From positions 1 to 38,525 of the IMG/VR virus record IMGVR_UViG_3300010430_000212: a stretch of DNA of 38,525 nucleotides, one strand, 5' to 3'. Positions within the stretch are counted from its first letter, which is position 1, and every line of letters starts with the position of its first letter. A program made the translations under genes and the position numbers. Shown here piece after piece: positions 3,527 through 21,759 of this stretch. The notes beneath the pieces were generated by a model. That model saw only the letters and a list, made by a program, of their open reading frames with translations. It was not told the DNA's origin and did not search any database. This stretch comes from a virus.

Positions 3527-4679
3527 AATTATGATTATCGTTGTTCTTGTTGTAGGTATCCTCTTATTGATATTTGCTGCAAGACTCTTTGAAACAAACA
3601 ATCAAGGTGAGTATCAGGTGAAACAGGCTTTCATCTCAGGTACAATGACTGCCCGGATGGTTCCCGGAACCTATGGTCAGATGCTCGGTCAGATTGAAAC
3701 CTATCGTGCAAACACCACTGTAGGCTTCGGACAGGAGCAGGAGGGAGACATCTCTGCTAATCTGGACTCTATCCCTGTAATCTTTAATGATGGCTCAAAA
3801 GCGAAAGTTTCAGGTCTTGTGAGGCTTCAGCTTCCACGAACCGAAACGGGAATGGTTAATCTGAAACTTGAATTTGCAGGTGGGTATAGTCATTTCATTG
3901 AAGCAGGTGTGGTTCCTATTGTTGAGAACGCTGTTAAACTTGGAGCTAACCTCCGATCAGCCCAAGATGCTTACACGACTTTGGCTTTATTCCAGCAGTC
4001 TGTTCAGGATCAGCTTGAGAATGGAACTTACGTAACCAAATCAGAACGTAAGGAAATTACTAATGCTACTGGTGACATTGAGGTTCGTCAGGTAACTGTA
4101 ATTGTTGAAGACTCGTCAGGTAATATTTTAAGACAACCTAACAGACTTCAAGAGCTTGGATGTCAAGTAGTTTCCTGTGTAATTGATGTTCCCGGATTCG
4201 ATCAGAGTGTTGAGGATATGATTGCGAAGCGTAAGGATGAAGCCATGAAAACTGAACTTGCTAAACAAGCAGCTCTCAGGGCACAGCAGGACGCTATCAC
4301 CGCAGAGGAACAGGGTAAAGCTGATGTAGCTAAAGCTAAGTATGTCAAAGAGGTTGAGCTTGTTGAAGCTACAACTAAGGCTCGTGAGAAGTTTGAGGTT
4401 GCTGAGTTTGCAGCTAAAGAAGCAGCACAGGCAAAGATTGCTAAGATTCTCGCTGCCGAAGCTGTGAAACAGGAGCTACTGATTGCCGATGGACTGTCAG
4501 CAGCAGCTAAATATCAGATTGATGCTGATGTAAAGCGTGACATAGGTGTTGCAGAACATATGAGTAAGTGGGTTGGACCACAGATTGTCATGTCTGGTGG
4601 AGAAGGATCAAAAGGCTCAGGTATTGAGAACGCTCTGATGATCAAGATGATGAGCGAAATGGTTAAATCTGGTAAATAA
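3513..4679 (+). CDS. SPFH / band-7 family membrane protein
   Basis: The frame opens earlier (3423), but the ATG at 3513 starts directly with MKRSRIMIIVV, a single N-terminal membrane anchor (residues about 6-24), so I take it as the start (388 aa); ATG 3531 is an alternative. Residues about 30-230 fit the band-7 fold: a strand-rich part with VPGTYGQMLGQIETY and NDGSKAKVSGLVRLQLP. A long Ala/Glu/Lys-rich coiled coil follows (about 240-320), then a Gly-rich end (MSGGEGSKGSG) as in stomatin and flotillin relatives. Such proteins form large membrane rings that organise lipid domains or hold proteases. In a phage it might alter the host membrane, protect phage membrane proteins or exclude other phages. 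It overlaps the upstream gene and shares one base with the next (TAATG). Confidence 0.8.
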   Translation: MKRSRIMIIVVLVVGILLLIFAARLFETNNQGEYQVKQAFISGTMTARMVPGTYGQMLGQIETYRANTTVGFGQEQEGDISANLDSIPVIFNDGSKAKVSGLVRLQLPRTETGMVNLKLEFAGGYSHFIEAGVVPIVENAVKLGANLRSAQDAYTTLALFQQSVQDQLENGTYVTKSERKEITNATGDIEVRQVTVIVEDSSGNILRQPNRLQELGCQVVSCVIDVPGFDQSVEDMIAKRKDEAMKTELAKQAALRAQQDAITAEEQGKADVAKAKYVKEVELVEATTKAREKFEVAEFAAKEAAQAKIAKILAAEAVKQELLIADGLSAAAKYQIDADVKRDIGVAEHMSKWVGPQIVMSGGEGSKGSGIENALMIKMMSEMVKSGK

Positions 4680-5720: not shown

Positions 5721-8700
5721 CTAATTCTCTTTCCTAAACTCCTGTGCTGTAGCACTCTTGAGTTTACCAAGTTGAACTGCTAATGGTACGACACGTCCGA
5801 TGTCTCTACCTAATCTACTTCTACCTTTATCAGGTCCGCTTTGGAGAATGTCTTCTTTACCTTGTAGAATCCTCACGACATCGTTTCCGATCTTCGCAGC
5901 ATCAGTTACCAGAGTGAACGCAGGAATTGCATTTCTTGTCAGTCTTTCAAATGCAATAGGACTTGTGTAGAACCAGATGTCAGTGTTGATCCTACTTATC
6001 TGATTGATTAAGAAGAAGTAAGCAAGTTTCTTATCGTCATCGTCATCATCATCTGAACCAAGTTTCATGAGTAGACCTGTTGCAAGTAGCGTCAGCCATA
6101 CCATAATCTCAGTCATATTCTTACGCATATTAGCAGCATCTACTTCAGTAAATCCTACTCGCTCTTTAGCTTCTGCTCGTTCTTCAAAAGTAGTCTTTTG
6201 CCAACCTACCTTTCTCAGAAGTTGATAGACAATATTGAAGGTATCTTTTATACCTCCTGCAATACCATCACTACTCTTATAGTATGCGATATAACTTCTG
6301 TACCGTCCTTTACGTTTCAAATAATTTGCACCTGTGTTCCTGTCAATTAACTGAGTATCCACTTTGAGACTACCAAAACGCTCCTCAAATCCCTGAAATG
6401 CCCATGTCCGGAACTGACTGAGCAATCTACCAAACATTCTACGCTTAGCTGAGATCGGAGTATCCGGATCATAGTTACCGTGGTTGAGCTTAACCATCTT
6501 GTCGATCCTCTGCTTGAGTTTAAATTCATCTCTGTCAGTAAACTCAATTCCTTCAGGAAGACTGAACTCACCTTCCTCATTTACTTCAAATACATCCCAC
6601 AGACTTTTCTGTTCTGCATCTTCTCCTTCACCTACAGTAACCATTGTTTCCATCATCATAGCAATCATGACCGGAGCTTGGTTAAAGTACTCAGAACGTG
6701 ACTGCAAGTTGAATGGTCTCATCCACTCAAGACGTTTACCTGTTCTCTTAAATAGAGATGCAGCACCGTTAAACTTATAGATTTCATTCTTGGATTCCTT
6801 CAAGGTATCAAAGTGATCCATTGCTGTACGAATCTTTTTCGCATTACCATTGATACCATCCCAACGATTGAACAATGCGTTACGTCCCATAGAGTTCAGG
6901 GTAAGCATCATTGCCTTACGGAATGTTTTCATCTTGTAGTTCCTACCATCAGATGCTTCAACGATGTTTGAGAGTACACCAAATCCAATGTTAGAACCAG
7001 CAGCAAACACGTTCCAACCCATACCTTTTAGCTGGATATACTTGAGGATCATATCTCCTACTTTTGACTTAACTCGCACACCACCAAGAGCTTCCTCTTG
7101 TTCATCAAGTGAAGCCATTTTACCTGCGAATGTTTCCTCGTCAATCTTACCTTCTTCACGAAGTTGTTCCAGAGATTCTCTGGTCTTATCAATATTGTCA
7201 CGTACTATTTTCTCCTGAGAAGTGAGAACTTTCTTCTTGGTTTTTCCTTCAGGAATGTTTGAAGGGTATCCCCAATAGGCTACGTCCAAGAAATCGTCAA
7301 GCATCTTTTTGGTTTGTTCAAGTCCTTCCTTACTAAGAAGCTTTCCCCATTTACTTTTAACTGGTTCTCCTGCAACGTTTTCTCTCTGCTCTACTGCTCT
7401 TTCTAAGATGTCTCTTACAATACGTACCTGATCTTCTATAGAAGCACGATGCTTGTAAGTGACTGCCATTGAGGAAAATGCTTTAACTATACGACCAAGA
7501 TCGAAAGACTTTTCCTCTGCAATAGTGTTCATAATATCTTTTCGGAACTCATCTTTCTCATCTTCATTAGGACTTCTACCTTCCCTTGCAGCAAACTGAA
7601 TACTCTCTAACTCAACATAATCATTGATAGTTTTGGTATGATCAGTAAGCAGGTGGAACTGATGTTCTTTCCTCTCCTCTTCTGCTCCGACAGTTGAGAG
7701 ATCATCCATACGGAGATTCTCTCTGAGATCATCTGTCATTTCACCCATCATAGATTGTATTCCACCTTCAAAAATAGCTTCGATAGTCTTCTTACTTATA
7801 AATGGAATACTGTTCATTTGCATGAACTTCGTTTTGTCAGAGGGTAGATAGTTTCTAACCTTTTTCAGATTAGCAACCATATAATTATGCAATGCAAGAT
7901 ATGAAGGTGTATCTTCGATCTGCTTGAACTTGGAATCATAATACTCTACACCCTCTACATTATCTTTAGGGATAGCTGTAACGTAGTCTCCCATTGGAAC
8001 CATAGGAGTACCTTTGTGAATCTCCTCAAGAAATCCTTTCTCCATGAACTTCGAGAACATATAAGGTGAATGATCTCCTTCCCATGAGGCAACAAGACCT
8101 TCAGCAAGTGCTTGATTGTTAGGATTGTGACCAAAGATATAATCCATATATGAGTCACGATCAAGCTTGTATCGTTCAACGTGTTTCCTATTCTCTTCGT
8201 AAAATTCCTCGTACCCTCTCTCTCCAAGTAGGTCTTTTAGTCGCTTCTCTTCTGCTGCTATTGCTTCGGCTGTCGGAGCTGGTGCGTCAGTATAGTCCGG
8301 ATCGTGAAAGAGAATGTTTGCATCAAATACCTCAGAATTAGCTCTCATGTTTGCTATATACTGAGCATTTTGAATAGCTATCTTCGTAGGATCAGATACC
8401 TTATTGTCCTTACTTAACGCTCGATTGAAGGTATTGTCTCTCTCTTTTTCTGTCTTGATTATCCAATCAAAAAACTTCTGAGAGAAACGGTGTACCATAT
8501 CTCCTGTCTTTCGTTGGTCAGTATTACTGAATGTCTGACGAAAGATATCAAAGTTCTTCAACCCTGTAGCAGCAATCAATTTATCAACATCTCTGGTGAC
8601 AGATTTCATTTCTTTGGTAGCTGCCCAATTTGCTTTCTTGATCCATTCACCTGTAGCCTGAAGCACTACGCTGTTGAGTTCAGTGATGTCAAGTAAGTTT

Positions 8701-9764
8701 TTAACAAAGAAATTTGCATCCTTCAGAGGAGCCTCTAAATCAATCTCAAGACCTTCACCTATAGTTTCCCTGACTTTCTCAGTAAGAATCCGTTTCTCAT
8801 GCTCTATGAGCTTCTGCTCGTATGAATCTGCCATGTGCGCCCACTCAACAAACTTCATGGTAGTTTCCTTGAGACCTTTATCTCGAACATCATACTCACC
8901 GGGATCATAAAAGATGTGCTGGTTATCACCTGAGAAATCTCCTGCTTGTTGCCACACATGAATAATACGTGCAGCGTGTGCAAGATCAGACGGAGAAGGA
9001 TTATCTCTCTTGAATAATTTTTCAAGAGTAGCCATATCCTCTTCAACATACTTGGTGATATCGTCAAGGTTAGTCTTGTCTTCCAGATCATTAATTTGCT
9101 TTCGGACTTCTGTTATCCTACTACTCAGGACAGTTATTTTTTTAGAGAGACTTTTCTTTTTCTCTTTGGTATTAGCTTTCTCCTGTAAATCTTTGAACTT
9201 GTACAGGTCATTGAATAAGACATCTAATTCTCGCTTCTTCTCATTGATAAGTGTCTGAAACTTAGGACGTTTAGCATCACTTACAGCAGCAGGGAACGCT
9301 GATGGTGGAACAAAATCTCCTTCCTCATTGTAATGTCCAGCTTCCTGTTCACTCTCAGAAGGAGTGAAAATGTGCTGACCACCTTCCTTATCTTCAAGGT
9401 TGGTGTAACCAATCATTTTCCTACGTAAGTCTCTGTCAGCTTGACGTTGTAGATTGACAGGAATATAGTTAAGTTGTAAGTCTGCTTTATATGAATTAGA
9501 CTCTCCAATACGTCTGTACACAATACGATGAGAGGTTCCATTCTTCTTATTGAAAGCTCTGATTTTCTTGTTGATACCTATTTGTCTCTCAGGAGAGAAC
9601 GGTCCATTCTGAAGTCCGATAGTACGCTTTAACTCAGTCCGTGGAATTGCATTTGGAATCGTTTGATCGTGAGCAATGTAAGCTCTATATGCCTCAAACT
9701 CACCAACATGATTGACTAAGTTCTTCCACTTCTGGTTGTTTGTATTTGGACACCTGTCTGCCAT
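5721..9764 (-). CDS. Large inner-virion protein (crAss-like ejected protein candidate)
   Basis: The 1,347-aa protein is encoded immediately after the RNA polymerase gene. Its ATG (9764) follows that gene's TAA by one base, and a good ribosome binding site (AAAGGAG) lies inside the end of the polymerase gene. There is no signal peptide. A charged coiled coil lies near residues 165-230 (ELDVLFNDLYKFKDLQEKAN) and another near 830-880. Near the C-terminus a membrane segment (about 1216-1235, EIMVWLTLLATGLLMKLG) is followed by seven consecutive Asp residues (1238-1244) and then more hydrophobic sequence. The preceding part includes FGRLLSQFRTWAFQGFEERF, a pattern I associate with giant virion proteins of short-tailed phages. 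Position and layout suggest a cargo protein delivered with the polymerase that may span the inner membrane. No enzyme motif was found. Confidence 0.7.
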   Translation of the reverse strand: MADRCPNTNNQKWKNLVNHVGEFEAYRAYIAHDQTIPNAIPRTELKRTIGLQNGPFSPERQIGINKKIRAFNKKNGTSHRIVYRRIGESNSYKADLQLNYIPVNLQRQADRDLRRKMIGYTNLEDKEGGQHIFTPSESEQEAGHYNEEGDFVPPSAFPAAVSDAKRPKFQTLINEKKRELDVLFNDLYKFKDLQEKANTKEKKKSLSKKITVLSSRITEVRKQINDLEDKTNLDDITKYVEEDMATLEKLFKRDNPSPSDLAHAARIIHVWQQAGDFSGDNQHIFYDPGEYDVRDKGLKETTMKFVEWAHMADSYEQKLIEHEKRILTEKVRETIGEGLEIDLEAPLKDANFFVKNLLDITELNSVVLQATGEWIKKANWAATKEMKSVTRDVDKLIAATGLKNFDIFRQTFSNTDQRKTGDMVHRFSQKFFDWIIKTEKERDNTFNRALSKDNKVSDPTKIAIQNAQYIANMRANSEVFDANILFHDPDYTDAPAPTAEAIAAEEKRLKDLLGERGYEEFYEENRKHVERYKLDRDSYMDYIFGHNPNNQALAEGLVASWEGDHSPYMFSKFMEKGFLEEIHKGTPMVPMGDYVTAIPKDNVEGVEYYDSKFKQIEDTPSYLALHNYMVANLKKVRNYLPSDKTKFMQMNSIPFISKKTIEAIFEGGIQSMMGEMTDDLRENLRMDDLSTVGAEEERKEHQFHLLTDHTKTINDYVELESIQFAAREGRSPNEDEKDEFRKDIMNTIAEEKSFDLGRIVKAFSSMAVTYKHRASIEDQVRIVRDILERAVEQRENVAGEPVKSKWGKLLSKEGLEQTKKMLDDFLDVAYWGYPSNIPEGKTKKKVLTSQEKIVRDNIDKTRESLEQLREEGKIDEETFAGKMASLDEQEEALGGVRVKSKVGDMILKYIQLKGMGWNVFAAGSNIGFGVLSNIVEASDGRNYKMKTFRKAMMLTLNSMGRNALFNRWDGINGNAKKIRTAMDHFDTLKESKNEIYKFNGAASLFKRTGKRLEWMRPFNLQSRSEYFNQAPVMIAMMMETMVTVGEGEDAEQKSLWDVFEVNEEGEFSLPEGIEFTDRDEFKLKQRIDKMVKLNHGNYDPDTPISAKRRMFGRLLSQFRTWAFQGFEERFGSLKVDTQLIDRNTGANYLKRKGRYRSYIAYYKSSDGIAGGIKDTFNIVYQLLRKVGWQKTTFEERAEAKERVGFTEVDAANMRKNMTEIMVWLTLLATGLLMKLGSDDDDDDDKKLAYFFLINQISRINTDIWFYTSPIAFERLTRNAIPAFTLVTDAAKIGNDVVRILQGKEDILQSGPDKGRSRLGRDIGRVVPLAVQLGKLKSATAQEFRKEN

Positions 9765-9765
9765 A

Positions 9766-12700
9766 TTAGACTCCTTTACATTTTTTCATGAGATCATTAA
9801 CAGTGTTGTCATCTACAATCCTCTGAGGACTGACAGGAGCTACGCTACTTGATGTTAGATTGCCAAAGTTAATAGGATTCACCTCACTTGGAATATCAGC
9901 ATCAGTTATGTACTCGTCAAAACGATCAGTGATCAGATCAAGAGTCTCATATATAGTGTGCTGTAAAATACTTCCTTCAGTGAACTCAAACCCTAAAGCC
10001 TGAAGCAATTTACCCAATCTTTCTTTAAGAGCTTCCCAAAAGGTAGTATCTTTTTTGTACTGAGTACTGTCCAAGATTCTCTGGAAGTCTGGATTCGTAA
10101 GAGCAACGCTCACAAATTCTTTAATGTCAGTAAACCCGTAGAACTTATTAATAGTTGATGCGTCAAGACCGTTCCGAAGAATCAAGTCTTGTACGAACTG
10201 ATCGTACTCAGCACTCTGGACAGGATCAGAACGCATCTTCTTCTTAGCTGCAACCATCAAGTCCTCAATATTCTTAGCTACTTTACGCTCTCTGTCAGTG
10301 AGTTCCTTATAGTTAGGATCAGCTTTAAGCCTGTTCAATGTATTTACTGATTTCGTATCAGTCTTACCTTGTAGAACGTACTGCATAAGCTTATATCCTG
10401 TAAGTCCATGAAGCAGTTCGTGCATATAAATTGAATTAGCATCGTCCTCGTTCATACCTTCTATTTTATTCCGATAGATAGTCATAGTATGAGCAGGATC
10501 AATGGTCTCTTCATAGATATATCTCCACGTAGCTGCATCATTTCCCTGATCAGAAATCTTCACGATCATTGATGAAGGGAGGTTATCCATGTTATTGAAA
10601 ATCTCCTGAGCGAGAACCTTATTATAACCACTTGCTCCGGTCTGAATGATGTTGTTCAGGACAGCTTTACTTTTCTCAATACCATCTTTAAAAATAGTTG
10701 TCTCCTGTTCTCCTGCAATCAACCTATCCATCAGAGGATCATTGTCCACTGTACCAGTAGTCGGATCACGCTGCTCTACTATTTCGTCAGCCTGTCCTTC
10801 GAGAAGAGAAAGATCAGGTTCACCATCAGCGACAGGTCCGTACTCCGGAGTAGTTCCGACAGGTTGCACAGGAGCTACAGGTGTGACTACATTGTTCCTT
10901 CTGATTTTAGACTTCTGAGAAGGACTCTGGAACTTTGCAGTATAATCATACTCAGATGCTCCAAGCTTTCCAAGAACATCTATCTCATAGTATGTAGAAT
11001 CGTAAGGATTATACTTGAAGAGTTTAGCGTTACGAGTAGTCAGCTTTGAATTTATCCTCAAGTAAGGTGGAGCGTAAGGTTTATTCGCAATCACAGTAGC
11101 CAACTTCTGAAATCCATTCTTATTCAGCTTGAAACTACGTGTCTGAGGATCAATACGACCTTTGTACACATCTGCTTTCATATTAACAGCACGAACCTGC
11201 TCAGGATGGTGTTGAAAATACTGCTCTACAAAAGGAGAGATGTTGTAATACTCATTCTTTTTATCTGCAAGTTGAGCAGGGTCCATATTACCAAGTGTCA
11301 ATTCTGCATTTGAGAGATAATTCATGAATGGTAACGTGGTCAGATATGCAGCAGGAACATACTTCACAAACTGTAATGCTTCCTGAATACCACCATTAAT
11401 ATATGTGTACGTTACAAGGTCTTCAGCGAGTTGTCTGAGCGTATAAGATTCTCCCTGAAAGGTTCCAATGACAGGACTTCCTCCGTTTGGACCTGTCTTA
11501 TTAGTGAAAGCATCTGTGAACGCAGCATAGATTTCAGTCTCATCAGTACCCTCTGCGGTAGATGCTCTGTAAGTAACCAGAGATGGATCACCATTTTTCT
11601 GATAGTCGATCTCAAGAAGTTGAAGAAAATTATTCTCTCTACCTAACTTGGTATTCTTGAACCGGACAAGTGCAGAAGCAAGTGACTCTTCTTTCGTTAT
11701 AGGTATTTGCTCTGTTTTCAACTCACCGTTTTCCTCAAACTCCCTGTATTCAAAGCGATCATAAACAAGTCTTTCACGCTCATCCTGAATAGGTTTGGCA
11801 AGTAATCCAAGTGCAGGGTCAGTGAAGATAAAGGATTTCATTTCCTTCCAGAGTTCAAGGCGACGTTCAGACCTGATTTTGGTTGTGACATCAGAAGACT
11901 GTATAGACAACTCTTCAATCTTTCCCATCAACCCTGTAACAGCATCTTCGTGATAGTAGAAATATTTTTTCCAAAGTTTATTATTGGTGATCAGTCCATG
12001 AACCACAGCCTGACCGTTAATAGTGGTAGGTCTGATTGCATACCTGTACTTTCCATTATCACGAATGACCCATCCCTTTGACTCAGGATACTTATTTTCA
12101 GTTCCCGGACTGATCCGTTTAAAATCTCCGAGTAACCTTGTTGCTCCTCTGACAGGAGAACCGTACAGATCAAATACCTGATCCTCTTTAACCTGAGATT
12201 CCATGACTGATTTACCAAGACCAGCACTGTCAGGATTGATTGCAGCTTGAATCTTCTGAATCTCCTTACCTTTATCAGTCAGGTTCTTGAACTTGATAAG
12301 TAACTGTACCTGAGCAGCTTTGTAATTTGCAGCCTTGTCACCCTTCTCAATATATTCTCTGAGTTTTGCGGCAGAGGCTCCTTCTCCTGCAAGTTTTCCA
12401 TCAGGGTCTACCCTCTCAATCTCTTCACCAGAAATCTTATACTTGTCCATATCACGAATAATCCTCATAGCTTCAGTCTCACGATTTCCGTAGAAGTCGG
12501 AGGTTGAACTATTCAGACGTTCAAGAGTCCGTACATAGTCGATGATGATATCCTGAGCGAGGAAGTAAGGTACTTCTTCAGTAAATCCAAGTTGATTCAG
12601 AATCTTGATTACAGAGAAGGTGTGCTTGTTTACATTGATCTTGTCGAGAATCTGTTCCTTCTCATTGTCCACAGCACCGGACTGATAACCTGCAATAATA

Positions 12701-15700
12701 TCTGACTTATATGTTTCACCATCAAGAGCAAGTTCAGGAGATAGTTTTCCAGTGGATTTCACTTCACCAAATTGAACTTCTAAATTCTCCCATCTTCTAT
12801 TTTTCCTAATCTTGTACACAAGGTCTTTTCCTTGAGCGACAGCGTTAAGCATACTATCCTGAGAGAACACACCAACACCAATCTTACCTGCTGCTGCGTT
12901 CTTGAACTTGTCACGCTGATACTTATCAGAGAGACCAGTAAACAGTTTACTATTCTTTTCTACTTGATTCTCAGCAGCTTCCCTATCACTACGAAGGTTG
13001 CTAATGTCTGCTGAAATATCCTTTAGCTTCCAGAATCCAAGTGGATTAGCAATCTGCTCCTGTACTTTAGGATCAGGGTTTCTGTGAATAGCAATGTGAA
13101 TATCCAGAATCCTATTCTGTAAGGTAGCTTTCTTACCAATCTGTATGTTGTTACGCTTCTTGAGAACTCCATCTTCATCCTTATAGGTATTATACATATA
13201 GGTGAAAATCTTGTCCACATCAAAGTCAGAACCCATTTGTACAACGTAATCTTTAGTTGCAATAAACAGGTCTCCGGACGACTCAGGTAAGAATCCTACG
13301 ATCTCAACCCATGACTGAGAGTTAGGTCCCTGATTCGGAATCCTCATACCAAACATCTGACGTACATTCTCAGGGAGCTTGTCAGTATCAATCGAGACAC
13401 GTCCGTTAATTTCTTTAGTGAAGTCACTCATCTTCAGGATAGTCCCGTCTTCATCTCTGAATTTCCACGGTACGATAGCTTGAGCAGGTTTCCGAACACC
13501 ATTCTCTTCACGAGCTGGTTTAAGTCCTGTCTCTCCATCCCAATTATCGGTGAACATGATTCCAGAATCCTCAAACTCTCCTGTTGCCTCGTCAGGGGTA
13601 AGCTTATTGATGAATCCTTCTTCCGATCCTAAGACGTATGATTTTCCGGGGAACTTGAGCTTGATAATCTTATTGGTGACAATAGAGTTTAGCAGAGCTT
13701 CATACTTCTGAGCAGATGGTGCAAAGGGAAGGAAGCGTAGTTCCTTGTCTATTATAAGTAGTTCTCTATCCGAGATAGGATAACTTCTCTCTTTGACTTC
13801 CCGAAGTAGCATTGCTCTTAACTCATCTACATCAATATTCTCAGGATTACCATCTACTGTAATCTCATCGAGCAGAGCTTGTTTCTCAATCTCATGAAGC
13901 TCATTGTAGATGTCATGGTATTTTTTTTGTAACTGTTCTCCTGTATATTTCTCACCGTCAATATCAAAGTCTTTAATCTTTAGCATATTGACAAAGAGGT
14001 TCTTAGAAGCTTGAGTAACTTTATTGACCTCAAATTTCTCAAAGTCATAAGGAACTTTCTGCTGAATCCTGAATCCTTTTCTGTTCAATCTTATCGTTGA
14101 GTTCTTAAACGTTAATTGATCAGGACTCATGATCCTTCCGTTATCATCAAAGATGTTGAAAGGCTCAGTTACGTTACCTACCTTGACTGCTGTACTATAA
14201 GCGACACGAGAAATGTCGTCACGTTCCATAGCAAGTCTAAGGTTTTCAAGGTCTGTGCCTCTTGTAAGCTGAGGGAGCAGTGGAAATGAGGAAGATTTAA
14301 TATATACTCTACGTTCAAATCCACTCTTATCGTCGATAACATTATCCACATAGACAGGTTTCATTGGCTGCATAACCTTTGCAAGAACCTTTGGGTCTAT
14401 ATCATTATCATTGGTGAGTGCATCAAAAGCTTTCTTGTAGAACTCATCAGAAATTTCACCTGACTGACGCATGACATAGAGATGTTCTTGCCATGTGGTA
14501 TATTCCTGAGCATCAGCAGCATCAATAGCATAGTAAGGTGAACTTACGAGCTTCTTTCCTAACAGTTTCTCAATACCTTTGAGTTCTGTAAAGAACTTGC
14601 GTTGGGTGATATCTCCATTGGTAAGCTTCTCCAACAGAGGTTCAACCATATCAAAGGCTTTCTTACCATCAAGGAGTTTTGTGAGTTGGAGAGCTGCAAG
14701 TGAAGCAGTTTTCACATCTGCGATAAACGCTTGAGTATAGTGGTTGTCTGCATCATTAGATGACTCGGCAATCTCATATCCCGGAGCGATGTCAGCAGCA
14801 AGACGTTTCCCGATATTGATGTAAGTTTCCTCTGCATCAGCTACAAAATTGTAGTCGAGATTTACACTACCGTCTTCGTTAAATCTTTCTTTGCGTTTCT
14901 GACCTACTTTATTTTCATCAGCAACCTTGAAATACATTGCAGGATCACCTGTGAAGATTTTTGCTATCTCAGCGTTACCAATAAGATATTGGAATACCAT
15001 ATCAGAAGCAGCACCTCTGACTCTGAAGTTACTATTCACTCTACCTCTGAGTGGATTCTTACGTCCAGCAGTATCACCACGCATGAACTTACTATCAAGT
15101 AGTCTCTGTCCTGCGCCACCGATGTCATTTTCTCCCCAATTATCAACCTTCTCTTGTACAAGGTGTTCAAAGTATCTACGGACCTCGTTTCTCAGGGCAG
15201 CGTGAATCTCTATGCTCGTATCGAAGTTGGGATTGATGTCTCCATTTGCAAGAAACATATCCGGAAGCGTATTGAGAGTAGGGAAGAACAAGAATTGTTC
15301 TGCACCATCAGCATATTCCTTATTGTCAATGGTGTGTCGATCATCCTCAGTATCAAGTCTTTTCTGATCCTGATACGCTTTGATCCTACGCATCTCAGGA
15401 CGTACAATAAATTCAATTAACTTATCTATTGACTGTTCTTCAAGATTTCCTTCTCTGGTTAAGAGAACATCTTGTGCAATAACCCTGAGTCCTACAACGG
15501 TAGTTTTATCAGATGTGGTAGGATAGAGAATCTGAATGACACGATTATTATTTCCGGACACATCTTTATATGCAGATTGTAACATACCAATCTTAATGAC
15601 TTCAATCTCTCCTTCAGATAACTTGTGCATCTCAGTGTTATCCTGACTCTTAGCACCTTTCTTTTTGAGTGGCTCAAGTGAAGCAACCCAATACCCAAGA

Positions 15701-18700
15701 TTCTCTCTAAATGCGTTCTGCTCATTTGCTGGAACCTTCTCCATTAAAGCGTCTACCCATGCAGATACTCCTGAGAAAGGCATACTTGAAAGCTCTTTAA
15801 CCAAACCGTTCTCACCAGTTTCCTCGTCAATTATCTTGAGGTCTCTCAGACGATTGACAAAGAATTTGTTCTGACCAAATGAGTAAACTGTCTTCGATCC
15901 TGAACGGTGTGAGTTGGTAAAGTTGTTAAGTTGATTCTTTGAATCCTCAAGAGCAAGAGACTTTATGATACTGTCATCCAATATCTTACCTGATATAATA
16001 GGAGTGGCTCCGGGACCTGTTACCTTATCATTGAGTATCTTAAATAGTCCATTGCTGGATGTCAAGAGAGCGTACAGGGATTGCTTACGTCCACGATATG
16101 CAAACTCACCTGTCATCAAAGTGTTGAAGGTATCATCAGCGAGAACGATACCAAATGACTCAAGCCACTGTCTCATTTCAGCTTCAGGAGGAAAGACTTT
16201 CTGTTTTCCTTTCAAGTTTACAATCCAATCATCATACTGTTTAGCGAGTTCATCCTTAACATTCTTGAGGAGAACATACTCATCAGGAGCTTCAGCTACA
16301 AAACCAGAGTTGGTAGACTGAATCAAATTCCTGTACCAATTACCTTGAATAACTCGTGCAAGTGCATTTGCATCAGACTCATGCTCAACCAGAGAGAACG
16401 CTTTAGTCTCAGAATCCTGAGAGAACATAATGAATCTCATGTTCACGTAATGGTTGGTCAATCCTGAGACAAATTGATTCTTAATCTGTTGATCTGCACC
16501 ATTGAGTTTGGTGATAATCTCTTCCAGAAACGGGAATGGTTCAGTATGATCTTCCAGTGCAGAGATCATCTGATCATAGTTAGGCTTGATGTTAGGAGTA
16601 AGACGCTGTATAAGCTCATATACTCGCTGATAATCCATGATCTTGTTTGCACCGATATAAGGATCAACCATAGGTACAATGTTCCCATCCTCGTCCCTAC
16701 GAACTTCTGTAATTCCTGAGAGGAATTGCTTAACCTTTGGTGCAATACCATCAGCAGGATTTGTAACAAATGCTTTTACATCACTCCAATTTGCACCTTC
16801 TTTTTCCTGTTCAGCTTGTTCTTCAGTTCCACCCTCTTCAGCTTCGTTCTCTAAATCCTTACGGATCAATCTGATCGAACCAATTCTATCAAGGCTCTCA
16901 GTGGTTAAGGCTGCAAGTTTGTTCCAATTCTTATCAAAGATTTCATACTGAGCTACTTCACGCTCACGTACTTGAATTTCATGTGCATCTCCTTCTTCAA
17001 TCGCATCTGCAAGATCGAGTTTAGCAGCTTCCAAGTCGTCACCAATAATCTCCTTACGAAGATTTTCATACATCTTCTCACGATTGACTGCTTTTTTTGA
17101 TCTGAAAATTACATCTAACGCCCTACCTCTGATGTGCGAAACCATTGATTGCTGCGGACGTACTCCGATTTCAGAGATTATCGTTCCTGTGATCTCTCCA
17201 TCTTCAAGCTTGACCTCAGAAGCAGCTTCCATATCCTCACGCTGCTTCTCTGTCATAGGAACCTTTGCTCCGGATTCAGGATCAATCTCCTGATTGTCTT
17301 GGAAGTTCAATCCACCTTTACGAGGTCTGCGCTTTTTAATGGTAGGAGATTGCTTGTCCTTCTGAATAACGTTACCTGTTTCAGGATCAAAATGTTGTGT
17401 TTTCTTCTTCTCCTGAGTCTGCTCTCTTTGTTCTTCCTCAGTAATCATCTCACCCTCACTATAGTACATCTCGTAGATCAGCTTATCAAGCTCTATCTTA
17501 CGTTCCTCAGTTGTGTCAGGATGTTGTGATTCTCTTACAAGTGCTTTAAAGAGTTCATTCTCAGCAGTCTTCTTCGGATCAGTCATTTCGATCTTGGAGA
17601 AGTCCATTGTGACAACAGGCTGGATCGTATAGACGTAGTTTGGTTTCTCGTCAGTTCCAACATTATGTGAGAGAAATGGAGTAGTAGTCATGGTCTTGAC
17701 ATATTCCTCATACGCCATACCTTCAACCTGATCACTCTCGTTGATTAGAGCGATTTTCTTACCTTGTCCAAGAGTATTCAAATCTACATGAGCAAACACC
17801 CTGTTAAGGTTATCTGTAAGTGTAGCAATAAATTCTTCAAACTTCTCCGGACCCATTCTTTCAAGGTCTCTCTTGTTCATGTAAACATGATTAGCACCTT
17901 TTCCACGACCAATGTCGAAGCGCATATCATTCTCTCCGGGTTTCAGAGTGAATTTAGTCATGTGAACATAAGCATCCTCAGTCTTTTCACTGCTACCATC
18001 ACGACTCAGGTACTCTTCAAGGTCTTCATAACCTTCAGCAATTTTGTAATTATTAAAAAACAACTGCATGAAATCTGAGATACCATCAGCTTCACTGATG
18101 TTGAAGCCTGTTTCCTTCATGATACTATCTACAATATTCCGAGATGCTACATCATCCATATTATAGTAGAAGATACCAAGTGCTCTTTGAATGGTTCTAA
18201 CAACAGCTTGATTATCACCAAGCTTCCTACTCTTCAGAGGAATAGCAATTTTTTTATTCTTTTTGATAGGTAGAACAATATACGCTACACCTTTTCTAAA
18301 CGGTGTATCGTCTGTTTTATTTACAAGGTCTGTTTGGTCAATACCTTTACCCTTAGTACGTTCCAACTTATTGTCATCTGTAGCAATCGTAATCTGAAGA
18401 CCTTTTTCAGGCATTGCATCAGCAGTAATATGGTGTCCATCTGAACTCTTGGATAGATAACCATCAGTCTTATCTGTAATAGTAGTTGTGAACTCTCCTT
18501 CTGCGACAATATGATTACGAATGTCCCTGCTTCGCTGACGATCTGCTTCTACATCACCTGAGACATTTAGTTCTGAAATCCACGGAACCTCATGGAGATA
18601 ACCAATTTTCTGCTCACCTGCATAAACTGCAATAGGAACTTGCTCATTATATTTCTTCCTCCGAGTATCCTCACTCATGTCAGGATCATTCTTCCACATC

Positions 18701-21700
18701 TCTTTCTTGGCTCCCCAAGTAGTAGTCTGGTTAAGACCACTGTCCTCATGATATACGTTAGCATCTTCAAACCCTTCATCCTCAACTACTAACCTGACTT
18801 TAGTTCCGGGACCATATTTGGTAGGATCGTTTATAGTCGGATCAGTCATATTAACGTTCAGAGTGTTAATAGTTTCTTCTCTTGAGAATACACCTTTCTT
18901 AAATACCTGATCGTAAACCCTTGCAAGGTAGGCAAGTATACCTGATCCGGATTCTACTTTGAGGTAGTCGGTAAAAATCTTTTTCTTGCTGTTATTAGCT
19001 CTTACAGTACGTTCAACATTGACGTAATCCTCGTCGATCTGCTTGTCAGTGTCGTTGGTATATTGACCCTTGTTGGTACGCTTATCGACATCTTCCTTGT
19101 CCCTCTTGAATTTCTTCTCTGTGAGACTCAGTTGTAGATACTCATTAAGTGTCTTATTACTAATCACATGGTTAGGATTCGCAAGACCATACACTCTCTC
19201 CAACGTAGGAAATATCTTGGCAAGTTTCTCCACTCCCACATGACCTATGATAGATGCGACAAGATCATCAAAGGACGGATTAGGATTTCCTGTTGCATCA
19301 GAGATGCTTTGAATTATATTCTGAATCCTACCTACATTATCTTGTTCAGCAGTTTGTCCTTCTGCTCCTACAAGCGCAGCACTCACTCCATCATCAGGAG
19401 GAAGCATATTATCAAATAGATCGTCAATCTGATCTTCAGCTTGTTTTTGAGCTGCCTTCTGCTCCGAACTCATTTTCGGTGCATTAGCTTGATTTTTGGT
19501 GACAGGAATATCTTTCTCAGTAATCTGTTCTGCATCCGGACCTTCAGCAGGTTCCTCTGTAGGAGTCACATCAGCAGGTTCTTCTCCTGCAAATACAGTA
19601 ACTTCTTCCTCTGGTTCTGTAACTTGTGTTACATCAACATCTTCTTTTTTCCTACGCTCATCCTCCTTAGCAGCCTCCTCTGTGGTTGCAGCCTGTTCAG
19701 CAGCCTCTTCCTTTACAGTGATATTTTGATTCGTATTCTCAGCCTCTTTCTTAGCGTCAGCAGATTTTCCTTCGTTCTTAGCTTTATTAATTTGCTGCTT
19801 CAAAGTCCTTGCTGATGCTCGATCCTGTGCTTTCTTAGCGTTCTGATATTTTGCACCTGTCATACGCTTGTACGCACGATCCTCTTGCTCAATTTTTTCC
19901 TTTACAGTTGCAAGAGTTCTCTCATAATAATCCTTTGCATCAGTCAGTTCAGGAGCAACAATGTCAGATGCTTCTATTTCAGCATCGGTTGCATCCAATT
20001 CATTCTGAAGAGTTTGACGATCAATGTCAAGTAATCGTCGTGTCTCACGGTTCTTAAATATTTTTGCTTGATCTTCGTAACGAGTAAGACGAGTGTAATT
20101 CTTCTCCATCCTACTAAGCTCTGCAAGTTGCTCTGTGGCTTGTGCTTGATAGTCCTCATCCCATCCATTCTCAAGGCGTTGTTCTTCAGAAACACCTGCT
20201 TCGATTTCCTTCAGACTACGCTCAAGATGTTCAGTAGTCCCTCTCACAAAGTTCTCTGTAACAATGTTTACAAAACCTTTATCTTTCAGAAGTTTGTCAA
20301 GATTATCCTGACCATTCTTGAGTGCAATAGCTCTTGCTGCTTGAAACTCAGCATAGTTACCAAGTTTAGTATTCAGGTATTCCTGATTAGCTTCAATCTG
20401 ACGCTGTTGTTCCTCGTACTTAGCTATGTAGGCTTTCTTGGAGTTAGGTCCAATCTTACCTGTCATTATCTCAGTAAATATACGTTGAGGTCCACCACCG
20501 AACAGACCCATCATACCTTCAAGTAATGCTTGATCTGAAGTAGCAAATTCATATACTCTCTCTGCAAAATCTTCAGGAACATCCCCTGCTTCAAATCCTG
20601 CTTTTCTTAGAGATTGATACTCTCCTTCCATTTGGAGAACGTTCTGTCCAATTTCTTCAGCTCCCTCTTTTCCAGCTTGTAAGAGTAGATTATCTGAAGA
20701 AAGAGTTCCAAGTCGTTTCGCTCCTGCTTTAAGACCTTTCTTATTAAGAAGATTACGAGTGAATCCTTTCCCTTTGTAGAGTCCGTGAAGTCCAATAGCA
20801 TCTGTGACGATAAACGCTTTGTTACGCCTCATGAAAGCATTTGCCTGTTCACCAGCAAATTTTTCAAAATCCTCCATCTTACCACCGTCAAGTTCATCTT
20901 GAGTTCTCTCTGCCGCAATTCTAAGAGCTTCGTCTGTATCTAATTCTGGATTTGTTTCTTGCAATTCCAAGACATTTTCCTCATACAAATTCTGCTTCAT
21001 TTCTTCGAGAGAGTTCTCGAACTGTTCAACAGCCATCATCTTACCTTCACCAAAGTTGGTGACATAAGCAGAGAGACCAGCGTTAATCATTTGTTGAACT
21101 GGTTCAGATGCAGTAATCGCAGATAGATACTTGTCAAGTCTCTTCGCTCTCGTAACAGCTTTTGTACCTCTAAGAGTTGATGTAGCAAGTTTTGCTCCTT
21201 TCTGTACAATTCCTATTCCTTTAGCTGCTGCCATTCCCGGAATCGCAAATCCTACAGCACTGTCGAGGATACCCCTGAAAGATGACCAATAGAATCCCGG
21301 ATCGCTCCAATCGAATACCTCTTGATTTTGTCTGTGGATAGGCATAGCATCATACAAACCTTCTTTCATCTGCTTCATTCCAGCAGAGAAAGCGTTGGTA
21401 TCAACTTGTTCCAATCCTTGTAAACGCTTGATGTTATTGTCAAAGTCGAGAATGTACCCTATATCTTCAGCAGCAGTAAGTACACCTGATGCAATACCTC
21501 CTACAACAGCATTAAAAGCTTTTCCTTCCCACGGTTGATGCAATGCTCTTTCACGTTCAAGGTCTTCTAAATCCTTAACTGTGATGTTGTCATCATACCT
21601 TTTACGTTCACCGATAATATCACCTGCAAAAATAGTAGGCTCCATCCCAAACGTAGATGGTACAGGAGTCAAATCTAATCCTTCAAGACTTGCTTGTTTC

Positions 21701-21759
21701 CGTGGAGTATTAAGACCAGTAATAGGGTCTATGAAACCATCATTGACTTTCTTGCCCAT
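9766..21759 (-). CDS. Giant virion RNA polymerase with C-terminal HExxH metalloprotease domain
   Basis: This 3,997-aa protein contains MGSDFDVDKIF; the three Asp of DFDVD are residues 2845, 2847 and 2849 (bases 13213-13227). This is the metal-binding DxDxD loop of two-barrel RNA polymerases, written DFDID in the crAss-like phage phi14:2 polymerase. The sequence before it (MRIPNQG...VEIVGFLP) also fits that family. The N-terminal ~650 residues, with hydrophobic helices (AVGFAIPGMAAAKGIGI), look like an inner-virion domain. A Lys/Glu/Ala/Pro linker spans about 655-790. A Pro/Val/Gly linker lies near 3618-3660. The C-terminus holds HELLH (residues 3780-3784) and a downstream Glu3881 in KEFVSVALTNPDF, a zincin pattern. 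Known relatives are packaged, injected and transcribe early genes. The gene starts two bases after the previous TAG. It is much longer than the ~2,200 aa of phi14:2 gp66. Confidence 0.88.
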   Translation of the reverse strand: MGKKVNDGFIDPITGLNTPRKQASLEGLDLTPVPSTFGMEPTIFAGDIIGERKRYDDNITVKDLEDLERERALHQPWEGKAFNAVVGGIASGVLTAAEDIGYILDFDNNIKRLQGLEQVDTNAFSAGMKQMKEGLYDAMPIHRQNQEVFDWSDPGFYWSSFRGILDSAVGFAIPGMAAAKGIGIVQKGAKLATSTLRGTKAVTRAKRLDKYLSAITASEPVQQMINAGLSAYVTNFGEGKMMAVEQFENSLEEMKQNLYEENVLELQETNPELDTDEALRIAAERTQDELDGGKMEDFEKFAGEQANAFMRRNKAFIVTDAIGLHGLYKGKGFTRNLLNKKGLKAGAKRLGTLSSDNLLLQAGKEGAEEIGQNVLQMEGEYQSLRKAGFEAGDVPEDFAERVYEFATSDQALLEGMMGLFGGGPQRIFTEIMTGKIGPNSKKAYIAKYEEQQRQIEANQEYLNTKLGNYAEFQAARAIALKNGQDNLDKLLKDKGFVNIVTENFVRGTTEHLERSLKEIEAGVSEEQRLENGWDEDYQAQATEQLAELSRMEKNYTRLTRYEDQAKIFKNRETRRLLDIDRQTLQNELDATDAEIEASDIVAPELTDAKDYYERTLATVKEKIEQEDRAYKRMTGAKYQNAKKAQDRASARTLKQQINKAKNEGKSADAKKEAENTNQNITVKEEAAEQAATTEEAAKEDERRKKEDVDVTQVTEPEEEVTVFAGEEPADVTPTEEPAEGPDAEQITEKDIPVTKNQANAPKMSSEQKAAQKQAEDQIDDLFDNMLPPDDGVSAALVGAEGQTAEQDNVGRIQNIIQSISDATGNPNPSFDDLVASIIGHVGVEKLAKIFPTLERVYGLANPNHVISNKTLNEYLQLSLTEKKFKRDKEDVDKRTNKGQYTNDTDKQIDEDYVNVERTVRANNSKKKIFTDYLKVESGSGILAYLARVYDQVFKKGVFSREETINTLNVNMTDPTINDPTKYGPGTKVRLVVEDEGFEDANVYHEDSGLNQTTTWGAKKEMWKNDPDMSEDTRRKKYNEQVPIAVYAGEQKIGYLHEVPWISELNVSGDVEADRQRSRDIRNHIVAEGEFTTTITDKTDGYLSKSSDGHHITADAMPEKGLQITIATDDNKLERTKGKGIDQTDLVNKTDDTPFRKGVAYIVLPIKKNKKIAIPLKSRKLGDNQAVVRTIQRALGIFYYNMDDVASRNIVDSIMKETGFNISEADGISDFMQLFFNNYKIAEGYEDLEEYLSRDGSSEKTEDAYVHMTKFTLKPGENDMRFDIGRGKGANHVYMNKRDLERMGPEKFEEFIATLTDNLNRVFAHVDLNTLGQGKKIALINESDQVEGMAYEEYVKTMTTTPFLSHNVGTDEKPNYVYTIQPVVTMDFSKIEMTDPKKTAENELFKALVRESQHPDTTEERKIELDKLIYEMYYSEGEMITEEEQREQTQEKKKTQHFDPETGNVIQKDKQSPTIKKRRPRKGGLNFQDNQEIDPESGAKVPMTEKQREDMEAASEVKLEDGEITGTIISEIGVRPQQSMVSHIRGRALDVIFRSKKAVNREKMYENLRKEIIGDDLEAAKLDLADAIEEGDAHEIQVREREVAQYEIFDKNWNKLAALTTESLDRIGSIRLIRKDLENEAEEGGTEEQAEQEKEGANWSDVKAFVTNPADGIAPKVKQFLSGITEVRRDEDGNIVPMVDPYIGANKIMDYQRVYELIQRLTPNIKPNYDQMISALEDHTEPFPFLEEIITKLNGADQQIKNQFVSGLTNHYVNMRFIMFSQDSETKAFSLVEHESDANALARVIQGNWYRNLIQSTNSGFVAEAPDEYVLLKNVKDELAKQYDDWIVNLKGKQKVFPPEAEMRQWLESFGIVLADDTFNTLMTGEFAYRGRKQSLYALLTSSNGLFKILNDKVTGPGATPIISGKILDDSIIKSLALEDSKNQLNNFTNSHRSGSKTVYSFGQNKFFVNRLRDLKIIDEETGENGLVKELSSMPFSGVSAWVDALMEKVPANEQNAFRENLGYWVASLEPLKKKGAKSQDNTEMHKLSEGEIEVIKIGMLQSAYKDVSGNNNRVIQILYPTTSDKTTVVGLRVIAQDVLLTREGNLEEQSIDKLIEFIVRPEMRRIKAYQDQKRLDTEDDRHTIDNKEYADGAEQFLFFPTLNTLPDMFLANGDINPNFDTSIEIHAALRNEVRRYFEHLVQEKVDNWGENDIGGAGQRLLDSKFMRGDTAGRKNPLRGRVNSNFRVRGAASDMVFQYLIGNAEIAKIFTGDPAMYFKVADENKVGQKRKERFNEDGSVNLDYNFVADAEETYINIGKRLAADIAPGYEIAESSNDADNHYTQAFIADVKTASLAALQLTKLLDGKKAFDMVEPLLEKLTNGDITQRKFFTELKGIEKLLGKKLVSSPYYAIDAADAQEYTTWQEHLYVMRQSGEISDEFYKKAFDALTNDNDIDPKVLAKVMQPMKPVYVDNVIDDKSGFERRVYIKSSSFPLLPQLTRGTDLENLRLAMERDDISRVAYSTAVKVGNVTEPFNIFDDNGRIMSPDQLTFKNSTIRLNRKGFRIQQKVPYDFEKFEVNKVTQASKNLFVNMLKIKDFDIDGEKYTGEQLQKKYHDIYNELHEIEKQALLDEITVDGNPENIDVDELRAMLLREVKERSYPISDRELLIIDKELRFLPFAPSAQKYEALLNSIVTNKIIKLKFPGKSYVLGSEEGFINKLTPDEATGEFEDSGIMFTDNWDGETGLKPAREENGVRKPAQAIVPWKFRDEDGTILKMSDFTKEINGRVSIDTDKLPENVRQMFGMRIPNQGPNSQSWVEIVGFLPESSGDLFIATKDYVVQMGSDFDVDKIFTYMYNTYKDEDGVLKKRNNIQIGKKATLQNRILDIHIAIHRNPDPKVQEQIANPLGFWKLKDISADISNLRSDREAAENQVEKNSKLFTGLSDKYQRDKFKNAAAGKIGVGVFSQDSMLNAVAQGKDLVYKIRKNRRWENLEVQFGEVKSTGKLSPELALDGETYKSDIIAGYQSGAVDNEKEQILDKINVNKHTFSVIKILNQLGFTEEVPYFLAQDIIIDYVRTLERLNSSTSDFYGNRETEAMRIIRDMDKYKISGEEIERVDPDGKLAGEGASAAKLREYIEKGDKAANYKAAQVQLLIKFKNLTDKGKEIQKIQAAINPDSAGLGKSVMESQVKEDQVFDLYGSPVRGATRLLGDFKRISPGTENKYPESKGWVIRDNGKYRYAIRPTTINGQAVVHGLITNNKLWKKYFYYHEDAVTGLMGKIEELSIQSSDVTTKIRSERRLELWKEMKSFIFTDPALGLLAKPIQDERERLVYDRFEYREFEENGELKTEQIPITKEESLASALVRFKNTKLGRENNFLQLLEIDYQKNGDPSLVTYRASTAEGTDETEIYAAFTDAFTNKTGPNGGSPVIGTFQGESYTLRQLAEDLVTYTYINGGIQEALQFVKYVPAAYLTTLPFMNYLSNAELTLGNMDPAQLADKKNEYYNISPFVEQYFQHHPEQVRAVNMKADVYKGRIDPQTRSFKLNKNGFQKLATVIANKPYAPPYLRINSKLTTRNAKLFKYNPYDSTYYEIDVLGKLGASEYDYTAKFQSPSQKSKIRRNNVVTPVAPVQPVGTTPEYGPVADGEPDLSLLEGQADEIVEQRDPTTGTVDNDPLMDRLIAGEQETTIFKDGIEKSKAVLNNIIQTGASGYNKVLAQEIFNNMDNLPSSMIVKISDQGNDAATWRYIYEETIDPAHTMTIYRNKIEGMNEDDANSIYMHELLHGLTGYKLMQYVLQGKTDTKSVNTLNRLKADPNYKELTDRERKVAKNIEDLMVAAKKKMRSDPVQSAEYDQFVQDLILRNGLDASTINKFYGFTDIKEFVSVALTNPDFQRILDSTQYKKDTTFWEALKERLGKLLQALGFEFTEGSILQHTIYETLDLITDRFDEYITDADIPSEVNPINFGNLTSSSVAPVSPQRIVDDNTVNDLMKKCKGV

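Follow-up and report, generated by a model that had tools for sequence, protein, structure and literature searches.

Comparison of sequences among crAss-like phages indicates that lone cysteines flank every chain break of the module of ejected proteins and are absent at the ends of chains in which the parts are fused. The reading towards which we lean, by a little, is that the transcription machinery makes up one covalent thread, whose chains are buttoned to each other by disulfides between terminal cysteines, with fission and fusion of its genes being near-neutral and with a zincin and a swappable payload lying beside the button.

The giant chain of the window and its zincin-like domain

The window, that is, the whole stretch of 38,525 nt that was analysed (IMGVR_UViG_3300010430_000212), carries a giant ORF, to which the residue numbers below refer unless stated otherwise. 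The features are as follows.

9766–21759, minus strand: giant, putatively ejected chain of 3,997 aa, with an upstream-subunit region, a two-barrel RNA polymerase (RNAP), a zincin and a terminal Cys (ORF call)
20791–21597, minus strand: residues 55–323, homologous to the separate upstream RNAP-associated subunit of crAss002, CrAssphage ZA and cr128 (blastp, 1e-7 to 2e-5)
12157–14535, minus strand: crAss-like virion RNAP core, residues 2409–3201 (phi14:2 gp77 matches of 1e-26 and 4e-4)
13213–13227, minus strand: DFDVD catalytic motif, residues 2845–2849 (motif and RNAP alignment)
10780–10908, minus strand: modest Pro-rich linker, residues about 3618–3660 (sequence)
9889–10686, minus strand: zincin-like metallopeptidase domain, residues 3692–3957 (profile, AlphaFold model, structural match to N4 vRNAP C1)
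10408–10422, minus strand: HELLH, residues 3780–3784 (sequence and alignment)
10117–10119, minus strand: Glu3881, presumed third metal ligand (conservation, see below)
9778–9780, minus strand: Cys3994, sole Cys of the giant chain, 4 residues from its end (sequence)
9750–9752, minus strand: Cys5 of the next ORF, sole Cys of that ORF (sequence)
5721–9764, minus strand: next chain, a helical tail protein of 1,347 aa related to crAss001 gp49 and phi14:2 gp76 (blastp, 1e-10 to 2e-4; full-length profile)

First pointers to the identity of the giant chain came from tblastn and PHROGs, which led to Flavobacterium phage Fpv3 and N4-type virion RNAP. Fpv3 gp32 matches the window chain strongly, as does gp77 of Cellulophaga phage phi14:2, whose blastp match at 1e-26 spans residues 2409–2857. 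Because of its DxDxD motif (DFDVD) and the homology to phi14:2 gp77, the window chain is assigned as a crAss-like virion RNA polymerase. We infer that it is packaged and ejected, by analogy with its homologues phi14:2 gp77, which was detected by mass spectrometry, and crAss001 gp47/gp50, which are packaged in the virion (PMC10172136). Little came from searching with the domain of the window by itself, and window segments scanned against viral contigs gave no relatives before the RNAP motif alignment (A1), which brought in 80 environmental relatives. It is to be noted that the relatives are metagenomic contigs, perhaps incomplete, with ORF starts called mechanically.

A preliminary description of this DNA had proposed that an HExxH metalloprotease domain is fused to the polymerase after a Pro-rich linker, marked by the HELLH motif and a downstream Glu. 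Both lie where it placed them in the ORF translation: HELLH is the sole HExxH in the chain (0.04 expected from the chain composition), and Glu3881 follows 97 residues past His3784, within KEFVSVALTNPDF. The linker is present as well, but it is only modest. A profile of the HExxH domain built from 59 relatives, with the window excluded, matched window residues 3692–3957 at an E-value of 5.6e-45, and it also matched Fpv3 (1.6e-37), phi14:2 gp76 (2.6e-21), a T7-like internal protein (1.3e-18), an N4-like vRNAP (1e-12) and CrAssphage ZA (2e-8). HExxH is retained in about nine of ten homologues. The third residue is Glu in 53 and Asp in six of the 60 aligned sequences (either of them in 59) and is followed by Phe in 56, and this downstream position played no part in the selection of the relatives. 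Seven relatives retain the domain with the first His replaced, six having EExxH and one KExxH, and such homologues were found in five fused chains.

When an alignment of the domain (A2) was compared with PDB sequences, matches were obtained to an internal virion protein (9sfn, 1.4e-16), to residues 2127–2320 of N4 vRNAP (3e-7) and to a tetrameric ejection protein (8vb2, 5.5e-7). In the AlphaFold model the core is predicted with confidence (pLDDT above 90) and has HELLH on a helix; the HExxH and Glu3881 are placed on two helices behind a three-stranded sheet, with strands 91–95, 104–107 and 117–121 (model numbering) preceding the HExxH helix and the Glu3881 helix C-terminal. A Foldseek search of this model against PDB gave no match below 0.001. 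Among its PDB candidates, the top structural match was N4 gp50 2124–2351 (Z 7.3, 173 residues, 4.8 Å), and small zincins came next with Z of 4–5. Since a Z of 7 is weak by itself, the kinship with N4 C1 is argued from the sequence match to the same residues. Predicted viral structures that matched were internal core proteins, polyvalent proteins, a Vibrio phage vRNAP and phi14:2 gp76. The SprT-like profile (PF10263) matched 18 of 44 relatives at E up to 0.1 (best 2.3e-6), with no match in the window. A clan-level structural comparison of the domain gave no decisive match, and the third residue comes about 100 residues after the motif, so that the term 'gluzincin' of the preliminary description is unsupported as it was stated.

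Thus, on the profile, the model and the conserved residues, the domain is assigned as a true zincin-like metallopeptidase-type domain, belonging to a family of injected phage proteins that includes N4 vRNAP C1 and T7-type internal proteins. The early suggestion of kinship with domains of large polyvalent phage proteins is borne out by the profile, PDB and structure matches, and the zincin-like fold and the conservation of the His and Glu residues, for which checks had been proposed, were both found. The domain type itself is already known: the zincin-like metallopeptidase of injected proteins was described by Iyer et al. (PMC5512222), the N4 structure names the corresponding zincin domain C1 (PMC12633501), and the zincin of a crAss-like module was previously annotated in CrAssphage ZA. 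N4 gp50 (PDB 9pnr, 9pnt; PMC12633501; PMC5512222) resembles the window chain in that the homologous HExxH zincin directly follows the polymerase in a giant ejected chain, whereas its polymerase is of T7 type and it is one uncut chain without breaks; no relationship was detectable between N4 C2 and the crAss-like tail chain. T7-like internal virion or ejection proteins (PDB 9sfn, 8vb2) have the homologous zincin in an ejected protein, but in a chain without polymerase. In gp96 of Thermus phage P23-45, a two-barrel virion RNAP and a metallopeptidase domain are likewise put together in one giant virion chain (PMC10770324), which is, unlike the window chain, a tape-measure protein; the likeness drawn here concerns the presence of the peptidase.

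Movable borders and the payload slot

The usual order of the module is upstream subunit, RNAP, zincin, optional payload and tail protein, with movable ORF borders; this string of about 5,000–6,000 residues is encoded as one, two, three or four chains, depending on the phage. Yutin et al. noted shifting protein boundaries between relatives within one phage group (PMC7886860). The zincin closes the RNAP chain of the window and of Fpv3, lies close to the beginning of the following chain in phi14:2, cr53, cr4 and cr114, and closes the upstream subunit in bajarodcaudo virus 1 (L006 4588–12603), which is closely related to crAss001. The window tail protein is without the N-terminal zincin carried by crAss001 gp49 and phi14:2 gp76. 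Phi14:2, with gp78, gp77 (RNAP) and gp76, shares the module order and the zincin family with the window, but it has three chains, and its zincin is at the start of gp76 and not at the end of the RNAP chain. The 'putative RNAP associated protein fused to zincinprotease' of CrAssphage ZA is again a zincin in an ejected RNAP module, while, unlike in the window, the zincin is on the upstream subunit and RNAP is fused with the tail protein. In crAss001 and cr128, a different HExxH stretch (YHEAFH), without a profile match, is found at the end of the upstream subunit, and it is possible that bajarodcaudo virus 1 and these two phages differ by a swap of one zincin for another. That the zincin is needed only by fused strings, or only by split ones, is ruled out by its presence in both.

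Between the zincin and the chain end, many phages have an additional enzyme: a RecD-like helicase, NADAR, RNase H, histidine phosphatase, cpYpsA or a stretch like 2OG-Fe(II) oxygenase. Such enzymes were seen in thirteen relatives, and the window has no payload at this site. Payloads are found in 23 of 37 split but in one of 19 apparently fused chains (p 4e-5, kinship uncorrected), and the sole payload-bearing 'fused' chain, that of L099, proved split. The slot enzymes look like takeover or counter-defence cargo and appear swappable. Does the zincin, then, belong to such cargo? It may serve as an effector that cleaves a host protein once injected, the RNAP chain being only its way in, as would be suggested by the adjoining slot and by injected proteins that carry the same domain with an unrelated polymerase or none. 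No target is known, however, and most relatives keep the domain next to the RNAP/tail border, which is more than a free effector would need; we regard this explanation as doubtful, yet as one to be taken seriously.

Cysteines at the breaks

What marks the places where the string is broken? If a Cys is sought within the final 5 residues of the leading chain and at residue 3–6 of the one that follows, for which the chance expectations are 0.11 and 0.19, all 48 pairs of split RNAP/tail neighbours have it at both ends (40/40 for non-redundant pairs), and L094 and L099, which join the split set after correct reading of their stop code, bring the count to 50/50. Terminal Cys is found in none of 22 fused chains, 17 of which have no interior Cys either. 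The Cys content inside split RNAP chains is 0.02%, 50-fold lower than the 1.05% of 88 other ORFs on the same contigs, three of which end and nine of which begin with a Cys. In the window, Cys3994 and Cys5 are the sole cysteines in the 5,344 residues of both ORFs, and the break between them comes just after the zincin.

The upstream junction follows the same rule, with three upstream chains having their Cys 9–15 residues from the end, and so do unusual break points in four relatives. In ten phages RNAP itself is broken about 265 residues ahead of DFDxD and its two genes are separated by a 160-aa gene; Cys is present at both broken ends. Phi14:2 has such pairs at both of its breaks: C1797 is the sole Cys of gp78, C3 and C2179 are the only ones of gp77, and C3 is the only one of gp76. 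In crAss001, gp47 has C2339 and gp49 has C5 as the sole Cys. A prediction was made and then came true in L101, in which a short tail chain ends with NICEHLPF and the next ORF starts with MANDCKTYV. Apparent exceptions could be traced: the true starts are later in crAss002 and CrAssphage ZA (MSCTPS and MSCGN), two relatives have displaced tail genes with Cys at the start, and in two others a domain of 130–170 residues is appended after SKCGG or EKCGG.

The upstream subunit of crAss001 is encoded on the other strand, and therefore the rule acts on proteins. DNA-level causes, namely a ribosome-binding site, a shared repeat or translational coupling, are ruled out since the rule holds with genes apart, on opposite strands, or with other genes between them. 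The last codons of the giant ORF (window 9766–9785, TGTAAAGGAGTCTAA) contain AAAGGAG, a ribosome-site-like stretch right before the next ATG, and this stretch is no explanation of the terminal Cys. Split inteins are also ruled out, because the chains stop 1–5 residues past the Cys or, more exactly, with it.

On the RNAP tree, the fused/split state changes at least 9 times at the tail border and at least 14 times at the upstream border. Tree-based sign tests were not significant because there are few fused/split contrasts on strongly supported branches, and residues at fused borders could not be aligned to those at split borders. Some gut members have interior cysteines, and those with recoded stops have more of them. 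An N4-like vRNAP, the single chain of 3,693 residues of phiA41 (L004 1–11082), and two T7-like internal proteins (L005 1836–8931; 1,576 and 782 aa) have no Cys at all. The phiA41 chain resembles the window module in this respect, and Cys avoidance may be general among ejected proteins. A literature search, with the phi14:2 structure paper outside its reach, gave no report of the cysteine rule, whose novelty is thus uncertain.

A proposed covalent thread and the possible work of the zincin

How can such cysteines serve an ejected module? What we infer is that, in the oxidised virion, the Cys ends of neighbouring chains would form a disulfide, so that the linked chains could pass from the head down the narrow tail as a single covalent thread, and that reduction in the host cytoplasm would then free them. 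The zincin, if active, would work after entry, its cut being made either in cis, next to the payload slot, or in a host protein. The disulfide is supported by the crAss001 virion, whose tail is held by disulfides and whose cargo must partly unfold past constrictions under 50 Å (PMC10172136), and the beads-on-a-string model put forward for N4 vRNAP accords with such a thread of linked beads (PMC12633501). The proposal taken as a whole, with an N4-C1-type zincin bead in a Cys-poor string, disulfides between terminal cysteines, and release and zincin action after entry, stands for us at an even balance.

The terminal cysteines could act otherwise than by a mutual bond, for instance by binding a metal, a cofactor or another virion protein, or as an assembly tag. 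Against this, there are exactly two cysteines per break, none at the outer ends and none in fused chains. A metal site in particular is unlikely because the chain ends lack further ligands, with almost no His or second Cys near them. We therefore consider a role without mutual bonding unlikely, and the disulfide is kept as the preferred reading of these cysteines.

Is catalysis by the zincin required at all? The domain might be mainly structural or regulatory, as a spacer or an inhibitor of RNAP with dispensable catalysis. Such a role would suit the seven domain-bearing relatives with EExxH or KExxH, and the C-terminal part of N4 vRNAP including C1 represses the N4 RNAP (PMC12633501). But about nine in ten homologues have HExxH, and 59 of 60 retain the third residue, which makes a mainly structural role quite improbable. 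The proposal that the zincin acts during assembly and cleaves the polymerase from other parts of the giant chain, which the preliminary description had raised, draws on zincins of polyvalent proteins that are thought to process their own chains, with P1 DdrB cut before packaging (PMC5512222), and on the ORF borders that move around the domain, yet it is unsupported as stated and deserves the least credence, since a cut would undo the peptide bond or Cys pair that holds the chains together in every relative, the EExxH and KExxH homologues occur in fused chains, and N4 vRNAP is packaged uncut (PMC5512222).

Provided that the join is important, no cut by the zincin would be expected there before ejection. 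Since a peptide bond or a Cys pair links the chain with RNAP and zincin to the part that follows, the comparative evidence argues against a cut at this border before ejection. Action of the zincin after entry is favoured here, whether as a cut in cis or, as the preliminary description also raised, on a host protein.

In the human gut, no viruses are more abundant than the crAss-like phages, and how megadalton amounts of folded enzyme exit through tail constrictions under 50 Å is an open question. The zincin connects the crAss-like ejected module to N4 and T7-type injection proteins. The cysteine rule points to joint travel of several proteins in a single covalent thread, and this is directly testable in cultured phages.
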